Part shown: positions 17,443-25,176 of the stretch, piece by piece
Layout: each line of letters starts with the position of its first letter
Numbering within the stretch: the stretch's first letter is position 1
Notes under the pieces: generated by a model
The model's database searches: none
What the model was told of the DNA's origin: nothing
What the model saw: the letters and a program-made list of their open reading frames with translations, nothing else
Source: a virus
Strand: one strand, 5' to 3'
IMG/VR virus record: IMGVR_UViG_3300022693_002146
Span: 1-27,933 of that record
Length of the DNA: 27,933 nucleotides
Made by a program: the position numbers and the translations under genes

Positions 17443-18351
17443 ATGAAGAATACCTCGTTTAAAAATAACATTCAGTGGGCTTGGGACGCAACAAGTATCG
17501 AAACGGCTATGACTTGCCCCCGGAAATACTACTACGTTATGATTGAGGGTCGGAGGCCCATAAAGAAGTCAGTTCACTTATATTTCGGCGGGCTGTATGC
17601 AAAAGCCCTTGAACACTTTTACAAATACCGTGCCCGTGGGGCGTCCATTGATGCCGCCGTGTGTCGGGTTGTCCGCGAAGCCCTTATTGCCACATGGGAC
17701 GCAGATATGGGGCAACCCATGCCGTTTTCCCACGCCGCCAAAACCCGATTTTCGTTAATCCGGTCAATCGTTTGGTATTTGGCTGAATTTGCCGATGAGT
17801 CCAAGGGCGGTTTGCAAACATACATGCTGAAGAACGGAAAACCGGCTGTTGAACTCAGTTTCAGCTTCGAAATGTTAGAGGATATTGTCCTTTGCGGCCA
17901 CCTTGACCGCGTAGCGACTATGGGCGACGAGAAATACGTCATGGATCAAAAGACGACAGGAGCTACACTGACTTCCTACTATTTCGACCAGTTTAAGCCT
18001 CACAATCAATTCTCACTCTACACTCTGGCCGGAAAAATCGTCCTCGACACCCCGATTAAGGGTGTAATTATCGACGCCGCGCAGGTCGCCGTGAGCTTTA
18101 CCCGCTTCGAACGCAGCATAACCTACCGAACAGAAGAAGAGTTAAATGAATGGTGGGAAAGTGTCCTTACAACTATTCGACTTACACAAAGCTACACAGC
18201 GTTAGATAAATTTCCCATGAACCTGTCTGCGTGCGGGAATTATGGAGGCTGTCCGTTCCGCCATGTCTGTGCCGCCGCGCCAAAGATACGAGAGAAGATA
18301 CTGGCGCATGATTTTAAGATCAAAACCTGGGATCCGATTAAGAGGAGATAG
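17443..18351 (+). CDS. Cas4/RecB-like PD-(D/E)XK nuclease with Fe-S cysteines
   Basis: 302 residues. Nuclease elements in order: H58 in YAKALEHF, E137, D155 in LCGHLDRV, D168-x-K170 in VMDQKTT, then Q189 and Y193 in HNQFSLYTL. Four cysteines, C25 in TCPRKYY and C264, C270, C276 in CGNYGGCPFRHVC, match the iron-sulfur cluster arrangement of Cas4 and AddB-type exonucleases. Expected to be a DNA exonuclease used in replication or recombination. It precedes the Sak4-like and SSB genes. No Cas gene or CRISPR array is present, so the resemblance to Cas4 is of fold, not system. Confidence 0.9.
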   Translation: MKNTSFKNNIQWAWDATSIETAMTCPRKYYYVMIEGRRPIKKSVHLYFGGLYAKALEHFYKYRARGASIDAAVCRVVREALIATWDADMGQPMPFSHAAKTRFSLIRSIVWYLAEFADESKGGLQTYMLKNGKPAVELSFSFEMLEDIVLCGHLDRVATMGDEKYVMDQKTTGATLTSYYFDQFKPHNQFSLYTLAGKIVLDTPIKGVIIDAAQVAVSFTRFERSITYRTEEELNEWWESVLTTIRLTQSYTALDKFPMNLSACGNYGGCPFRHVCAAAPKIREKILAHDFKIKTWDPIKRR

Positions 18352-20141: not shown

Positions 20142-20474
20142 ATGCACACATTTAACCGAATTGTCTACCTCTCCGGGCCAATGAAAGATATTCCACACTA
20201 CAACTACCCCCTCTTTGATTCTGTCTCAGAGCGGCTTCGAGATCACGGCCATCGAGTTTATAATCCCGCTGAGTTTCCACACGATGGCCCCCCTGAAAAT
20301 TTTCCTATTCGAACAGCCTTTGCCGCGTACAGCTCTTATATCTGTCTTGAGGCAGACACAATTGTCCTTCTACCAAAATGGCAAGAGTCTCTTGGTGTTC
20401 GGGCTGAATTTGCTCTTGCAAGCATCTGCAAGCTAGATATTTTTGAATGGAGTGATATCGTTGATCTCTGCTGA
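20142..20474 (+). CDS. DUF4406 protein (nucleoside deoxyribosyltransferase-like)
   Basis: 110 residues: IVYLSGPMKDIPHYNYPLFD (7-26), LRDHGHRVYNPAEFPHD (32-48), CLEADTIVLLPKWQESLGVRAEFALA (68-93). This matches the DUF4406 pattern, related in fold to nucleoside 2-deoxyribosyltransferases, with an expected nucleotide or nucleoside substrate. The usual SGPM and aD-tivlLp-W--S-G---E motifs are intact. Whether it is enzymatic is unproven. Confidence 0.88.
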   Translation: MHTFNRIVYLSGPMKDIPHYNYPLFDSVSERLRDHGHRVYNPAEFPHDGPPENFPIRTAFAAYSSYICLEADTIVLLPKWQESLGVRAEFALASICKLDIFEWSDIVDLC

Positions 20475-21741
20475 ATTTGAAGTTATCGACCCCGCTCGCA
20501 TTATCGTCGGCGAGCGCCAGCGGTCTGAGCTAACCGACATCCAAACTCTGGCTGATAGTATTAAGCGCATCGGCTTAATTCACCCAATTGTAGTTGATCG
20601 AGACTACGTTCTCATTTCCGGGGAACGCCGACTCACTGCTGTTCTGTCGATCGGCCTTAATCCTATAACTATTCAATTTGCCGACAGCCTTGATCCGTCT
20701 ACTCGCCACCTTATAGAGCTCGAGGAGAATGTTAAACGAAAGGATCTGTCGTGGAAGGATTATGTTAAGTCAGTAATTGACTATCACAATATCAGACTTG
20801 GAGCAGCTGAAGGTCAATGGGAGATTATTAACACCGCGACTGACCTTGGCATAAGTGCCCAACACACAGGAAAATGCCTACTTGTATCTTCTCTTATTGA
20901 ACATGAGATGGTTGCAGACTGTGATAAGTTTTCTACCGCCTATAATGTCGCTCAAAGGATAAAGGAAAGGAGAGCCGCAAGTGCAACAAAAGAGATTGGA
21001 GAAGAGATTGGCCGAACGCTTGATACAGCAGCGGAAGGATTTGAAAGACATGAAAAGGAAGGAGATGGAGATGGAAGCAGCCATATCAGCAACGAAGATT
21101 TTATTCCTTGGGCTCGGTCTTATTCTGGGGATCGCTTCAACCTTATTCACTGTGATTTTCCTTACGGGATAGGCGTCGGGGATAAATCGGGGCAGTCGGC
21201 ACGGAAGAAGACAGGTGGGTTTGAGGATACGCCAGAGGTTTATGAAAATCTGATCGAACAATTTACTGACAATTCTGAGAGGTTTATTGATCAATCAGCC
21301 CATTTAATCTTTTGGTTTCCTATGGACCGCTATCAATATACTCTTGAAACTTTGGAGGTAAATTGGCGTGTCAACCCCTATCCTCTCATCTGGCACAAAT
21401 CTGATAACACAGGAATACTCCCTGATCCTAACCGGGGGCCTCGACGAACATACGAAACTGCTTTCTTTGCTTCGCGAGGTGATCGCAAAATCGTCCGTGC
21501 AGTTGCTAACAGTATTGGTGCTGTATCAACACGTGAGTTCCATACAAGCGAAAAGCCCCGCCCGGTCCTGACCCACTTTATGAGGATGCTTGTCGATGAA
21601 ACAACCAGAATGTTTGATCCAACCGCCGGGAGCGGAAACGCAGTTAGAGTGGCCGCAGAACTTGGCGCAGCAACCTGTCTTGGGCTCGAGATTAACAGAG
21701 AGTTCGCGGAGGCTGCCTGTAAAAATATATTGCGGAAGTAA
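20461..21741 (+). CDS. ParB-like domain fused to DNA N4/N6 methyltransferase
   Basis: 426 residues from TTG 20461, favoured by GGAG at 20449-20452; TTG 20443 and GTG 20452 are alternatives. Residues 7-75 form a ParB/sulfiredoxin-type domain (TLADSIKRIGLIHPIVVD, then SGERRLTA with GERR at 54-57). A helical linker follows to about 210. The methyltransferase has the catalytic motif CDFPYG (231-236), HTSEKP (361-366) and the AdoMet motif FDPTAGSGN (385-393), in the order of beta-type amino-methyltransferases. It would methylate A or C in phage or host DNA. No cognate restriction gene is seen. Confidence 0.88.
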   Translation: MISAEFEVIDPARIIVGERQRSELTDIQTLADSIKRIGLIHPIVVDRDYVLISGERRLTAVLSIGLNPITIQFADSLDPSTRHLIELEENVKRKDLSWKDYVKSVIDYHNIRLGAAEGQWEIINTATDLGISAQHTGKCLLVSSLIEHEMVADCDKFSTAYNVAQRIKERRAASATKEIGEEIGRTLDTAAEGFERHEKEGDGDGSSHISNEDFIPWARSYSGDRFNLIHCDFPYGIGVGDKSGQSARKKTGGFEDTPEVYENLIEQFTDNSERFIDQSAHLIFWFPMDRYQYTLETLEVNWRVNPYPLIWHKSDNTGILPDPNRGPRRTYETAFFASRGDRKIVRAVANSIGAVSTREFHTSEKPRPVLTHFMRMLVDETTRMFDPTAGSGNAVRVAAELGAATCLGLEINREFAEAACKNILRK

Positions 21742-21866: not shown

Positions 21867-22310
21867 ATGACCATCATCGCAATCAAAGACGGAGTGATCG
21901 TCGCCGACAGCTGGACACAAGATTACGGTGTGCTCTTAGGATCAGTACAAAAGATTGTTGCCGTACCCGAGGATCACGGCGGCGGCTTCATTGCCGGCGT
22001 TGGCACCGCCTCACACATCTACGCCGCTATCGACACGTTTCTGGAAACCGGCATAATGGAAACCGCCGAGAAGGACGGACCTGTCTTTCTGTGGTTGCGC
22101 AGCGGGGGCCAAGTGTTCCGATTTGAGGACGGCAAGGGCTGGTATTCAGTCGTAGCGGATTACCACGCCATCGGCGCAGGTTGGTCGCTGGCGATTGGCG
22201 CAATGGCATACGGCGCCAGCGCCTTTGATGCAGTTGGAATATGCTGCAAACTACACGCCAGTTGCGGCGGCAAAATTACTTATCGCAATCTATCAGGATC
22301 ATTAAAATGA
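21867..22310 (+). CDS. proteasome/HslV-like Ntn-hydrolase-fold protein
   Basis: 147 residues: MTIIAIKDGVIVADSWTQ at the start (T2 in place for an N-terminal nucleophile), KIVAVPEDHGGGFIAGVGTASHI, and AIGAGWSLAIGAMAYGASAFDAV at about 95-118. The pattern follows the small phage proteins resembling HslV or proteasome beta subunits. A protease role is not established, and no HslU-like partner is present. The stop overlaps the next ATG by 4 nt (ATGA). Confidence 0.75.
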   Translation: MTIIAIKDGVIVADSWTQDYGVLLGSVQKIVAVPEDHGGGFIAGVGTASHIYAAIDTFLETGIMETAEKDGPVFLWLRSGGQVFRFEDGKGWYSVVADYHAIGAGWSLAIGAMAYGASAFDAVGICCKLHASCGGKITYRNLSGSLK

Positions 22311-23314
22311 CACAGTATAACATAATGCTGGTAGGTGAGGCTTGGGGCCAGCAAGAAGAAGAAGTCGGGGAGCCGTTTGTCGGCCCGTCAGGACAGGTGC
22401 TTAATGGAATGCTCAGTACGGCCGGAATTGACCGCAAAGCCTGCTACCTCACAAACGTATTTAACTTTCATCCAGTCGGAAATAAGCTTGACGCACTTAA
22501 ATCTAATAAGGCTGAGGCTATCAAGGATTGGCCCAAGCTCGGATCTATTCATATCGACAGCAAATATCAAGTTGAGCTGGACCGCCTTCTAAGGGAGATT
22601 GAGACAATAGCCCCTAATATTATTATTGCTCTCGGTGCCACCGCGCTGTGGGCACTTTGTAAACGGTCAGGGATAAAGAAATATCGCGGCACGCCCCTTC
22701 TCACCTTTGACGGTAAGATTAAAGTTCTACCTACCTACCATCCCGCCGCCATTATGCGCCAGTGGAGCCAGCGCCCAATCGTAATCTCCGACCTCGGCAA
22801 GGCCCGCAACGAGGCCGCTTTCCCGGAACTCAGGCGGCCTGTTCGTCTCATACATTTGGAGCCAACCATAGATGACATTGCTAACTTTTACGAACGGTAC
22901 ATCGAGTCGGTTGACGTTGTGGTGTGCGATATTGAAACGAAACGGGGAACCATTACTGAAGTTGGATTTGCGCCAACAATCGACAGGGCTATTGTCATTC
23001 CTTTTTACTCCCGAAGGCGGCCAGGTGGCAATTATTGGCCTGACCAAAAGTCTGAGGTTGCAGCATGGAAATGGGTAGAGTATATCTGCCGGGAGAAGCG
23101 TCTCGTAGGCCAAAATTTTTCCTATGATATTCAGTGGCTCTGGTCAAAAAACCATATCGCCACACCACAGATAGAGGATGATACAATGATCCTACACCAC
23201 TCTATGTATATGGAAATGGAAAAGTCGCTTGGGTTTTTGGGGTCCATCTATACCAGTGAGCCAAGTTGGAAATTCATGCGAACAGATACTGATGATTTTA
23301 AGAAGGACGCCTAA
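22307..23314 (+). CDS. uracil-DNA glycosylase fused to N-terminal part of a 3'-5' exonuclease
   Basis: 335 residues. The first 170 form a family 4/5-like UDG: VGEAWGQQEEEVGEPFVGPS (9-28), TNVFNFHP (49-56), NIIIALGATALWAL (104-117), TYHPAAIMRQW (143-153). Only two cysteines (C46, C118) lie in this part, so the usual Fe-S cluster is probably missing. From about 200 a DnaQ-type exonuclease begins: Exo I VVCDIETK (D208, E210) and Exo II LVGQNFSYDIQWLW (N270, D274), ending at SEPSWKFMRTDTDDFKKDA. Exo III is absent here and appears at the start of the polymerase gene. ATG 22307 overlaps the previous stop. Confidence 0.87.
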   Translation: MTQYNIMLVGEAWGQQEEEVGEPFVGPSGQVLNGMLSTAGIDRKACYLTNVFNFHPVGNKLDALKSNKAEAIKDWPKLGSIHIDSKYQVELDRLLREIETIAPNIIIALGATALWALCKRSGIKKYRGTPLLTFDGKIKVLPTYHPAAIMRQWSQRPIVISDLGKARNEAAFPELRRPVRLIHLEPTIDDIANFYERYIESVDVVVCDIETKRGTITEVGFAPTIDRAIVIPFYSRRRPGGNYWPDQKSEVAAWKWVEYICREKRLVGQNFSYDIQWLWSKNHIATPQIEDDTMILHHSMYMEMEKSLGFLGSIYTSEPSWKFMRTDTDDFKKDA

Positions 23315-23448
23315 ATAGAATTGCGGCCATTACGGCCTAATCGGCGCAGGCTGTCTCCTGCATCCAGAAAGGAAAGTGCCCTAAACAATCCTTGACGTAC
23401 TTAGGGGAGGCTACCCAGAATTTGCCTCCCCTCTTTTAGGAGAACACC
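23315..23448 (+). other. structured spacer between exonuclease and polymerase genes
   Basis: 134 nt with hairpins GGCC-ATTAC-GGCC, GCAGG-CTGTCT-CCTGC and a terminator-like stem at 23403-23437. A TTGACG at 23392-23397 with CAGAAT 18 nt later is a weak promoter overlapping the last stem. No group I intron core sequence is recognised. Confidence 0.55.
23403..23437 (+). terminator. intrinsic terminator
   Basis: AGGGGAGGC pairs with GCCTCCCCT (9 bp, 12-nt loop), followed by CTTTT. It lies between the two parts of the DNA polymerase system, so polymerase expression needs read-through or a local promoter. Confidence 0.8.
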
Positions 23449-23610
23449 ATGTCAAACGAGCTGCAAAGATACCGACAAGCTATAGCCTTTATGGAAAGAA
23501 ACCAGAAGGAGGCTGAGGGGAAATTAAAGCAAATAGAGACTAAGATGGTAGAGCTAGACGCCAAACTTACCTCGGCCCAAGATAGGCTTGACAAACTTGA
23601 AAAAGAATGA
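23449..23610 (+). CDS. small coiled-coil protein (53 aa)
   Basis: MSNELQRYRQAIAFMERNQKEAEGKL, then heptad-spaced I, M, L, L, L residues (KLKQIETKMVELDAKLTSAQ, DRLDKLEKE) and no proline: one long amphipathic helix, likely a dimeric coiled coil. AGGAG precedes the ATG. The polymerase start lies 6 nt after its stop, so the two are coupled. It sits exactly where the exonuclease domain is interrupted and could bridge the two proteins; that is inference. Confidence 0.7.
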   Translation: MSNELQRYRQAIAFMERNQKEAEGKLKQIETKMVELDAKLTSAQDRLDKLEKE

Positions 23611-23616
23611 GGATGT

Positions 23617-25176
23617 ATGAAGATCTATAATACAATAAACCTCCAGCCTTCAACCTCACTCAACCCGGATGAGCGATCTTGGATTTACAACGGCCTTGAC
23701 TGTTGTGTGACGCTTGAAATTCAACAGCGGCTACGGGCCGATCTCGCTCTAGAGCCTGATAATGTTAAAGAAACCTACGCCACAGCTATGCGGAAGCTGG
23801 CTCCTGTTAATTATATGTGTCTTAAAGGGCTACGTATTGACGCCGCCGCCAGAAGCCGATCTGTGACAGAGTACAAAATCGAACTTGGCCGTCTGAACCA
23901 AAATTTTGACCGCATAATGAATGCTGCCGTAGACTACACTATAAACTGGCGTTCACACGTTCAGGTCAAGCGTCTATTTTATGAAACTTTTGAGCTGAAG
24001 AAAATTAGAAAGCGTGACTCAAAAGGCTTTTTCTCCCCCACCGCCAACAATGACGCCCTCGAGCGGCTATGTTTTTATCACTACCCACAGGTTTTTGCAC
24101 GCTACATACTGGCTATGAGAAACCTTGGTAAGAAGATAAGCTTTCTCGAAACAGCATTTGACCCAGACGGACGGATGCGGACCTCGCTTAATATAAGTGG
24201 GACAGATACAGGCCGGTTTTCTAGCCGCTTCTCTGCTTTCGGTACTGGAAACAATTTACAGAATGTAGAAGAGCGCCTACGTCGCGTTTTTGTCGCCGAC
24301 CCAGGCTACATCTTCGTAAACGTAGATCTTGCGCAGGCCGATGCTCGAAATGTTGGCGCACGAATTTGGGAGAGCTTCTACGACAGTCACGGCGCTGAGG
24401 TTGCCGGAAAATACCTCGACACATGTGAAAGCAGCGACCTGCATACTCGAGTTTGTTCCATGGCTTGGCAGGAGCTAGACTGGCCGGACCCGTGGGATGA
24501 TAAGAAAGCAAAAGAGGTTGCAGAGGCTCTGGCCTACCGCCACTACACCTACCGCTTTATGGCAAAGAAACTCGGTCACGGCACGAATTACTACGGCCAG
24601 CCTCCAACTATGTCTCTGCACACAAAAATTGATGAGCTTACAATTCAAAACTTCCAATCCCGCTACTTCAAAGCCTTCCCCCTCATCCCTAAATGGCACG
24701 CTTGGGTATTTGAGCAGCTTAAAACAACCGGCCAGATAACAACCCTCTTTGGCCGACGCCGCTTTTTCTTCGACAGGTATAAAGACCCCCGGACTCTTCG
24801 AAAAGCAATCGCCTATGAGCCTCAATCTATGACCGGAGAGTTCCTTGATCGAGGTTGGCTGCAGCTTTGGGACAGTATGCCCGAGGTACAGCTACTTCTT
24901 CCCGTTCATGACTCAATTCTATTTCAAGTACCTTATGAGGCGGTTAATGAACTTGTGCCAAAAGCTCTGGAGTTGCTTAAAGTAACCCTTACGCTAAAGG
25001 CAGGTCGTAAATACAGCATCCCTCTTGAGGCAAAAACGGGCTTTAATTGGGGAGACGCTAAGAAAAATGTAAAAACCGGTCTCTGGGAGAATGAAAATGG
25101 GCTCAAAGATTGGTCAGGTAAAGAAACTCGCAATGCCCCAAAAGTCAAAACAAGACTCGCACACTACCTATCCTAG
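23617..25176 (+). CDS. family A DNA polymerase (with exonuclease motif III at N-terminus)
   Basis: 519 residues. Residues 21-36, SWIYNGLDCCVTLEIQ, carry the Y-x3-D Exo III signature (Y24, D28) of a DnaQ exonuclease whose motifs I and II are in the preceding gene. The polymerase domain has TGRFSSR (198-204), motif A VNVDLAQADARN (234-245, D237; the usual glutamate is D242), motif B RFMAKKLGHGTNYYG (313-327, K317) and motif C PVHDSILFQVP (429-439, D432; the usual HDE reads HDS). It is the replicative polymerase candidate. Its end overlaps the next gene by about 80 nt. Confidence 0.93.
   Translation: MKIYNTINLQPSTSLNPDERSWIYNGLDCCVTLEIQQRLRADLALEPDNVKETYATAMRKLAPVNYMCLKGLRIDAAARSRSVTEYKIELGRLNQNFDRIMNAAVDYTINWRSHVQVKRLFYETFELKKIRKRDSKGFFSPTANNDALERLCFYHYPQVFARYILAMRNLGKKISFLETAFDPDGRMRTSLNISGTDTGRFSSRFSAFGTGNNLQNVEERLRRVFVADPGYIFVNVDLAQADARNVGARIWESFYDSHGAEVAGKYLDTCESSDLHTRVCSMAWQELDWPDPWDDKKAKEVAEALAYRHYTYRFMAKKLGHGTNYYGQPPTMSLHTKIDELTIQNFQSRYFKAFPLIPKWHAWVFEQLKTTGQITTLFGRRRFFFDRYKDPRTLRKAIAYEPQSMTGEFLDRGWLQLWDSMPEVQLLLPVHDSILFQVPYEAVNELVPKALELLKVTLTLKAGRKYSIPLEAKTGFNWGDAKKNVKTGLWENENGLKDWSGKETRNAPKVKTRLAHYLS

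Follow-up and report, generated by a model that had tools for sequence, protein, structure and literature searches.

A phage family-A DNA polymerase with its proofreading exonuclease domain divided between two genes

In a virus contig of 27,933 nt (IMG/VR record IMGVR_UViG_3300022693_002146; this whole stretch is called the window below), the motifs of one proofreading exonuclease lie in two neighbouring genes. A sequence-only reading of this DNA had assigned Exo I and Exo II to a uracil-DNA glycosylase (UDG) fusion protein and Exo III to the polymerase, and had proposed that a functional two-chain enzyme is assembled, that proofreading is lost, or that an element entered the gene. The locus thus raises the question of which of these applies, and whether the split is an accident of one contig or a stable feature of a phage lineage.

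The divided proofreading domain

Reading the codons directly confirmed the assignment of the motifs to the two genes. The features of the locus are the following:

22307..23314, + strand: UDG-Exo subunit gene (335 aa; stop codon 23312-23314), with a family-4-like uracil-DNA glycosylase at about residues 1-174 and a PolA-type 3'-5' exonuclease at about 178-332
22928..22936, + strand: Exo I, with D208 (GAT, 22928-22930) and E210 (GAA, 22934-22936)
23126..23128, + strand: Exo II, D274 (GAT), inside QNFSYD
23315..23448, + strand: intergenic leader with hairpins
23403-23411 / 23424-23432: perfect 9-bp G+C-rich stem with a 12-nt loop, followed by CTTTTAG with only four Ts
23449..23610, + strand: coiled-coil-like ORF of 53 aa, with an AGGAG ribosome site at 23438-23442
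23617..25176, + strand: polymerase subunit gene (519 aa; ATG at 23617), encoding in order an N-terminal segment (MKIYNT...W), the Exo III helix, and the thumb, palm and fingers of a family-A DNA polymerase
23686..23700, + strand: Exo III (YNGLD), with Y24 (TAC, 23686-23688) and D28 (GAC, 23698-23700)

The two genes run in the same direction, 302 nt apart. All motifs of a DEDDy (DnaQ-like) exonuclease of the PolA type are present, namely DxE of Exo I, D of Exo II and YxxxD of Exo III, and they are spread over two polypeptides, with Exo I and II on the product of 22307-23314 and Exo III on that of 23617-25176. The first protein matches the Pfam family UDG (E = 1.3e-23), and its exonuclease part reaches the loop after Exo II. 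The second matches DNA_pol_A (E = 6.9e-28), and its two catalytic aspartates and its fold are likewise those of a family-A polymerase.

In PHROGs both proteins match the same family of one-chain phage DNA polymerases, phrog_17, the UDG-Exo protein at positions 481-788 and the polymerase at positions 801-1235, adjacent and without overlap. Only about a dozen family positions fall between the chains, which places the cut in the exonuclease domain after Exo II and before Exo III, with little missing. Together with the conservation of the five catalytic residues described below, these adjoining halves set the split beyond chance. Among the window ORFs that were scanned against PHROGs, two others gave nuclease-related matches, an exonuclease-family protein at 17443-18351 and an endolysin group, neither of them in polymerase families.

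Conservation and single origin of the split

We collected loci carrying both genes by scanning viral and genome contigs with profiles, and added the annotated phage Kuura. A first set comprised 121 usable split loci; an enlarged set comprised 160 non-redundant loci with the split, plus 10 relatives with a single chain and one locus broken at a different place. Three loci were left out. In L238 (MW202554) the break comes after Exo III; in L006 (Vibrio phage ABTNL-3) it interrupts the polymerase domain, and an ORF of 555 nt separates the parts; and in L072 the exonuclease and polymerase ORFs overlap on opposite strands. No split relative had a polymerase with a complete exonuclease of its own.

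The catalytic residues are almost perfectly kept on both chains. D208 and E210 of Exo I and Y24 and D28 of Exo III are each present in 160/160 split loci, the residues around Exo III being variable, and the Exo II aspartate D274 is present in 159/160. The exception, L249, carries Glu in its place (QNGLYE), the sole catalytic-residue substitution seen. The polymerase aspartates are equally constant (D237 in 160/160, D432 in 155/156). Loci fetched with the exonuclease as query had an intact Exo III Tyr and Asp in 70/70 cases, and complete loci fetched with the polymerase as query had intact Exo I and II in 47/47, so that the fetching did not itself select for the residues. Such conservation is evidence of selection on these residues, not proof that they meet in one molecule.

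The position of the break is also constant. Throughout the first set, the end of the exonuclease chain lies 9-20 residues past an invariant Trp; the polymerase chain begins 20-30 codons (mostly 22-26) ahead of the Exo III Tyr, with a conserved start codon and a common N-terminus, M(K/R)IIxT. A Shine-Dalgarno-like site precedes the polymerase start in 66 of the 121 loci; at random positions the figure is 11%, and the count is biased upwards because starts with such a site were preferred. In a FastTree tree of both halves, the split loci fall, apart from the single-chain relatives, on one side of a single branch (support 100 with 110 rows, 99 with 160 rows); the outgroup branches are long, and the side on which the root lies is an assumption. 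The distance matrices of the two halves correlate with r = 0.81, and no re-fused gene was found among the 160 loci of the split clade. Judged from these sequences, the split is ancient, fixed and of single origin rather than an accident of this contig.

One position of the polymerase itself is unusual. H321 (about 24577-24579) is, by the GHGTN motif, equivalent to F762 in the O-helix of E. coli Pol I, a position usually occupied by Phe, Tyr or Leu. It is His in 157/159 split loci and in 8/9 single-chain relatives.

The sequence between the two genes

The earlier description of the gap in the window, as about 300 bp with hairpins, a terminator and a gene for 53 amino acids, stands except for the terminator: the 9-bp stem was absent from the output of a terminator scan, and only four Ts follow it. 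The 136-nt leader folds moderately more stably than its shuffles (z = -2.3), and the gap as a whole folds no better than shuffles (z = -0.46). Rfam models matched nothing in the gap, whether at gathering thresholds or at relaxed ones; the gap showed no group I or group II intron core and contained no endonuclease gene. The 53-aa ORF matched no family above a Pfam cut-off. It is specific to the gap of this phage and lies outside the conserved system, since the genes in the gap vary among relatives.

The gap differs widely in length among the split loci: at one extreme the genes overlap by 4 nt, at the other about 5 kb lies between them, and the median is about 470-490 nt. In each set there are about 20 loci in which the genes are adjacent or overlap by 1-4 nt. 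In six of these (L027, L043, L048, L067, L068 and L069) the UDG-Exo stop and the polymerase start share 4 nt, placing the ribosome site (AAGAGGGA) inside the C-terminal codons of the exonuclease chain. The gaps of different loci hold differing, unrelated small genes, or none. The 121 loci include 41 with a gene of the DUF1937 cluster, 14 with DUF7768, 8 with a KTSC-domain protein and 3 with an HNH-type ORF. Examples of DUF1937 or DUF7768 at the junction are L009, L010, L013, L014, L015 and L001. We take both families to have folds like that of nucleoside deoxyribosyltransferase, as would suit a cargo site for nucleotide metabolism beside the UDG; the junction also acts as a docking site for small genes that look like those of nucleotide metabolism.

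These observations bear on two explanations in which an insert is responsible for the split. The two coding parts could be joined into one normal chain by splicing, whether of a self-splicing intron or of another insert; group I introns are frequent in phage polymerase genes, such as SPO1 gene 31, and an intron has been proposed for the split PolA of MEP401 (PMC10580990). We nevertheless find this hardly credible here, given the Rfam and folding results, the conserved start codon and N-terminus of the polymerase, the unrelated gap contents, and the roughly 20 loci with no room for an intron, of which those with overlapping genes make splicing impossible. It is also quite unlikely that a mobile element was recently inserted, as the homing endonuclease mobE was in nrdA, and that the gap content is what is left of it. 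Phages do have genes broken into pieces by homing endonucleases (PMC2988022), and the three HNH-type ORFs would suit such an event; against it stand the single origin of the split over a deep clade and the fact that the gaps are mostly either empty or occupied by DUF1937, DUF7768 or other genes. Because the gaps are variable or empty, no present-day element accounts for the split, and the proposal that an element entered the gene finds no support as a present-day cause; an insertion is possible as the original, very old trigger.

Predicted folds and assembly of the enzyme

We compared AF2 models of the two chains, built from alignments without the Kuura row (L004), with known structures. The UDG-Exo model (pLDDT 93.4, with a disordered C-terminal tail at 330-335) resembles family-4 UDGs over residues 1-174 (Z about 20; Z = 20.3 to 1ui0 over 2-174), and its residues 178-332 align to residues 325-482 of the Klenow fragment (Z = 14.1, 149 aligned). 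The polymerase model (pLDDT 94.4), in which a helix at 17-44 bears Exo III, aligns over residues 15-497 to Klenow 488-928 (Z = 31.4, 408 aligned). The two Klenow ranges abut without overlapping, which puts the break in the loop that leads into the Exo III helix. If the first aligned stretch is ungapped, Y24 and D28 of the model would correspond to Klenow Y497 and D501, and D208 and E210 to D355 and E357, all four being catalytic residues of Klenow. Both models together cover the exonuclease and polymerase domains of Klenow, which differs in being a single chain without a UDG domain.

Covariation between the chains was scored by mutual information over 110 paired loci (Neff 95). It did not clearly favour the Exo III segment, which took part in 10 of the 100 highest-scoring pairs between chains, as against 3-10 in shuffles, and the scores of the real pairings exceeded those of shuffles, as relatedness alone would give.

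The suggestion of a functional two-chain enzyme is supported by the five residues kept in 160 split loci and by the two models tiling one Klenow exonuclease domain. From these sequences and models we consider it very probable that the locus encodes a two-chain family-A polymerase with an ancient, fixed split, in which the polymerase subunit completes the DEDDy site in trans. The first chain would supply the UDG and the exonuclease domain with Exo I and II, and the second the Exo III helix with the thumb, palm and fingers. The two would be translated separately, and the proofreading site would be complete once the Exo III helix at the N-terminus of the polymerase had docked on the exonuclease domain of the first chain. 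We infer in this way that the chains physically assemble, that the complex has exonuclease activity, and that it is used for proofreading in vivo, all of these being predicted roles. A part of the UDG-Exo protein might still serve some other function.

Loss of proofreading, with the exonuclease half left as a relic or as a carrier of the UDG, appears decidedly improbable. Splitting a domain could inactivate it, and phage PolAs with a dead exonuclease do exist; but in one of these, divPolA1, all three catalytic aspartates are replaced (PMC11348598), whereas here the five residues persist in 160 diverged loci with a single D-to-E change, which contradicts the loss. It might also be argued that the UDG-exonuclease chain works by itself as nuclease and glycosylase, that the polymerase does no proofreading, and that Exo III serves only in folding. 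The separate encoding of the chains and the continuation of the Exo III helix into the long helix 17-44 of the polymerase model would agree with this, yet the Exo III Tyr and Asp are kept in 160/160 loci, beyond what a helix needs, while nearby residues vary. We regard such independence as very improbable. A different reading, which seems to us unlikely, makes proofreading detachable: the polymerase alone would be proofreading-deficient, and the UDG-Exo protein a removable subunit whose supply tunes the error rate and the response to uracil. That supply may be set by gap genes, hairpins or translational coupling.

In the preferred two-chain reading, one nuclease active site would be made from two separately encoded chains, an arrangement fixed across a large phage clade. 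Such a clade is a natural test of the uncoupling of a polymerase from its proofreader, and lets one ask whether the supply of a subunit adjusts proofreading.

Split phage polymerases are already known, and a search of open-licence papers found no description of a split inside the exonuclease domain. The PolA of MEP401-type marine phages is a family-A enzyme whose two ORFs flank a small third one, but its break lies inside the polymerase domain and leaves the exonuclease domain whole on the first chain (PMC10580990). The split family-B polymerase gp43A/gp43B of T4-related phages, whose products co-purify and are active, and the Aeh1 NrdA, a ribonucleotide reductase, resemble our proposed enzyme in that an essential replication enzyme is made of two assembling chains with variable sequence between the halves (PMC2988022). 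Those splits occur in few phages and implicate a mobile endonuclease or an untranslated insert (PMC2988022), whereas the present one spans a large clade whose members carry cargo genes between the halves or have no gap at all.

A cultured member is available in Caulobacter phage Kuura (OQ067476), where Kuura_029 and Kuura_026 show the same split and are annotated as a hypothetical protein and a DNA polymerase; the paper on this phage names only a DNA polymerase (PMC9959647). The split accounts for the annotation of the exonuclease half as hypothetical. Single-chain members of phrog_17, such as that of Microcystis phage Mel-JY34 (MW202489), have the same domain order and the same Exo I-III residues, but on one polypeptide with a continuous loop between Exo II and Exo III. 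The neighbours in Mel-JY34 are also alike, with a ParB/methyltransferase gene upstream and a DUF3987 primase downstream.

In the window, a gene at 20443-21741, upstream of the polymerase genes, encodes a ParB N-terminal domain and an N6/N4 DNA methylase domain in one protein, and a ParB-methylase protein is likewise found upstream in L002 and L003. Between it and the UDG-Exo gene is an HslV-family peptidase gene (21867-22310, phrog_1040), whose stop overlaps the UDG-Exo start in ATGA at 22307-22310; this overlap suggests that the two genes are translationally coupled.
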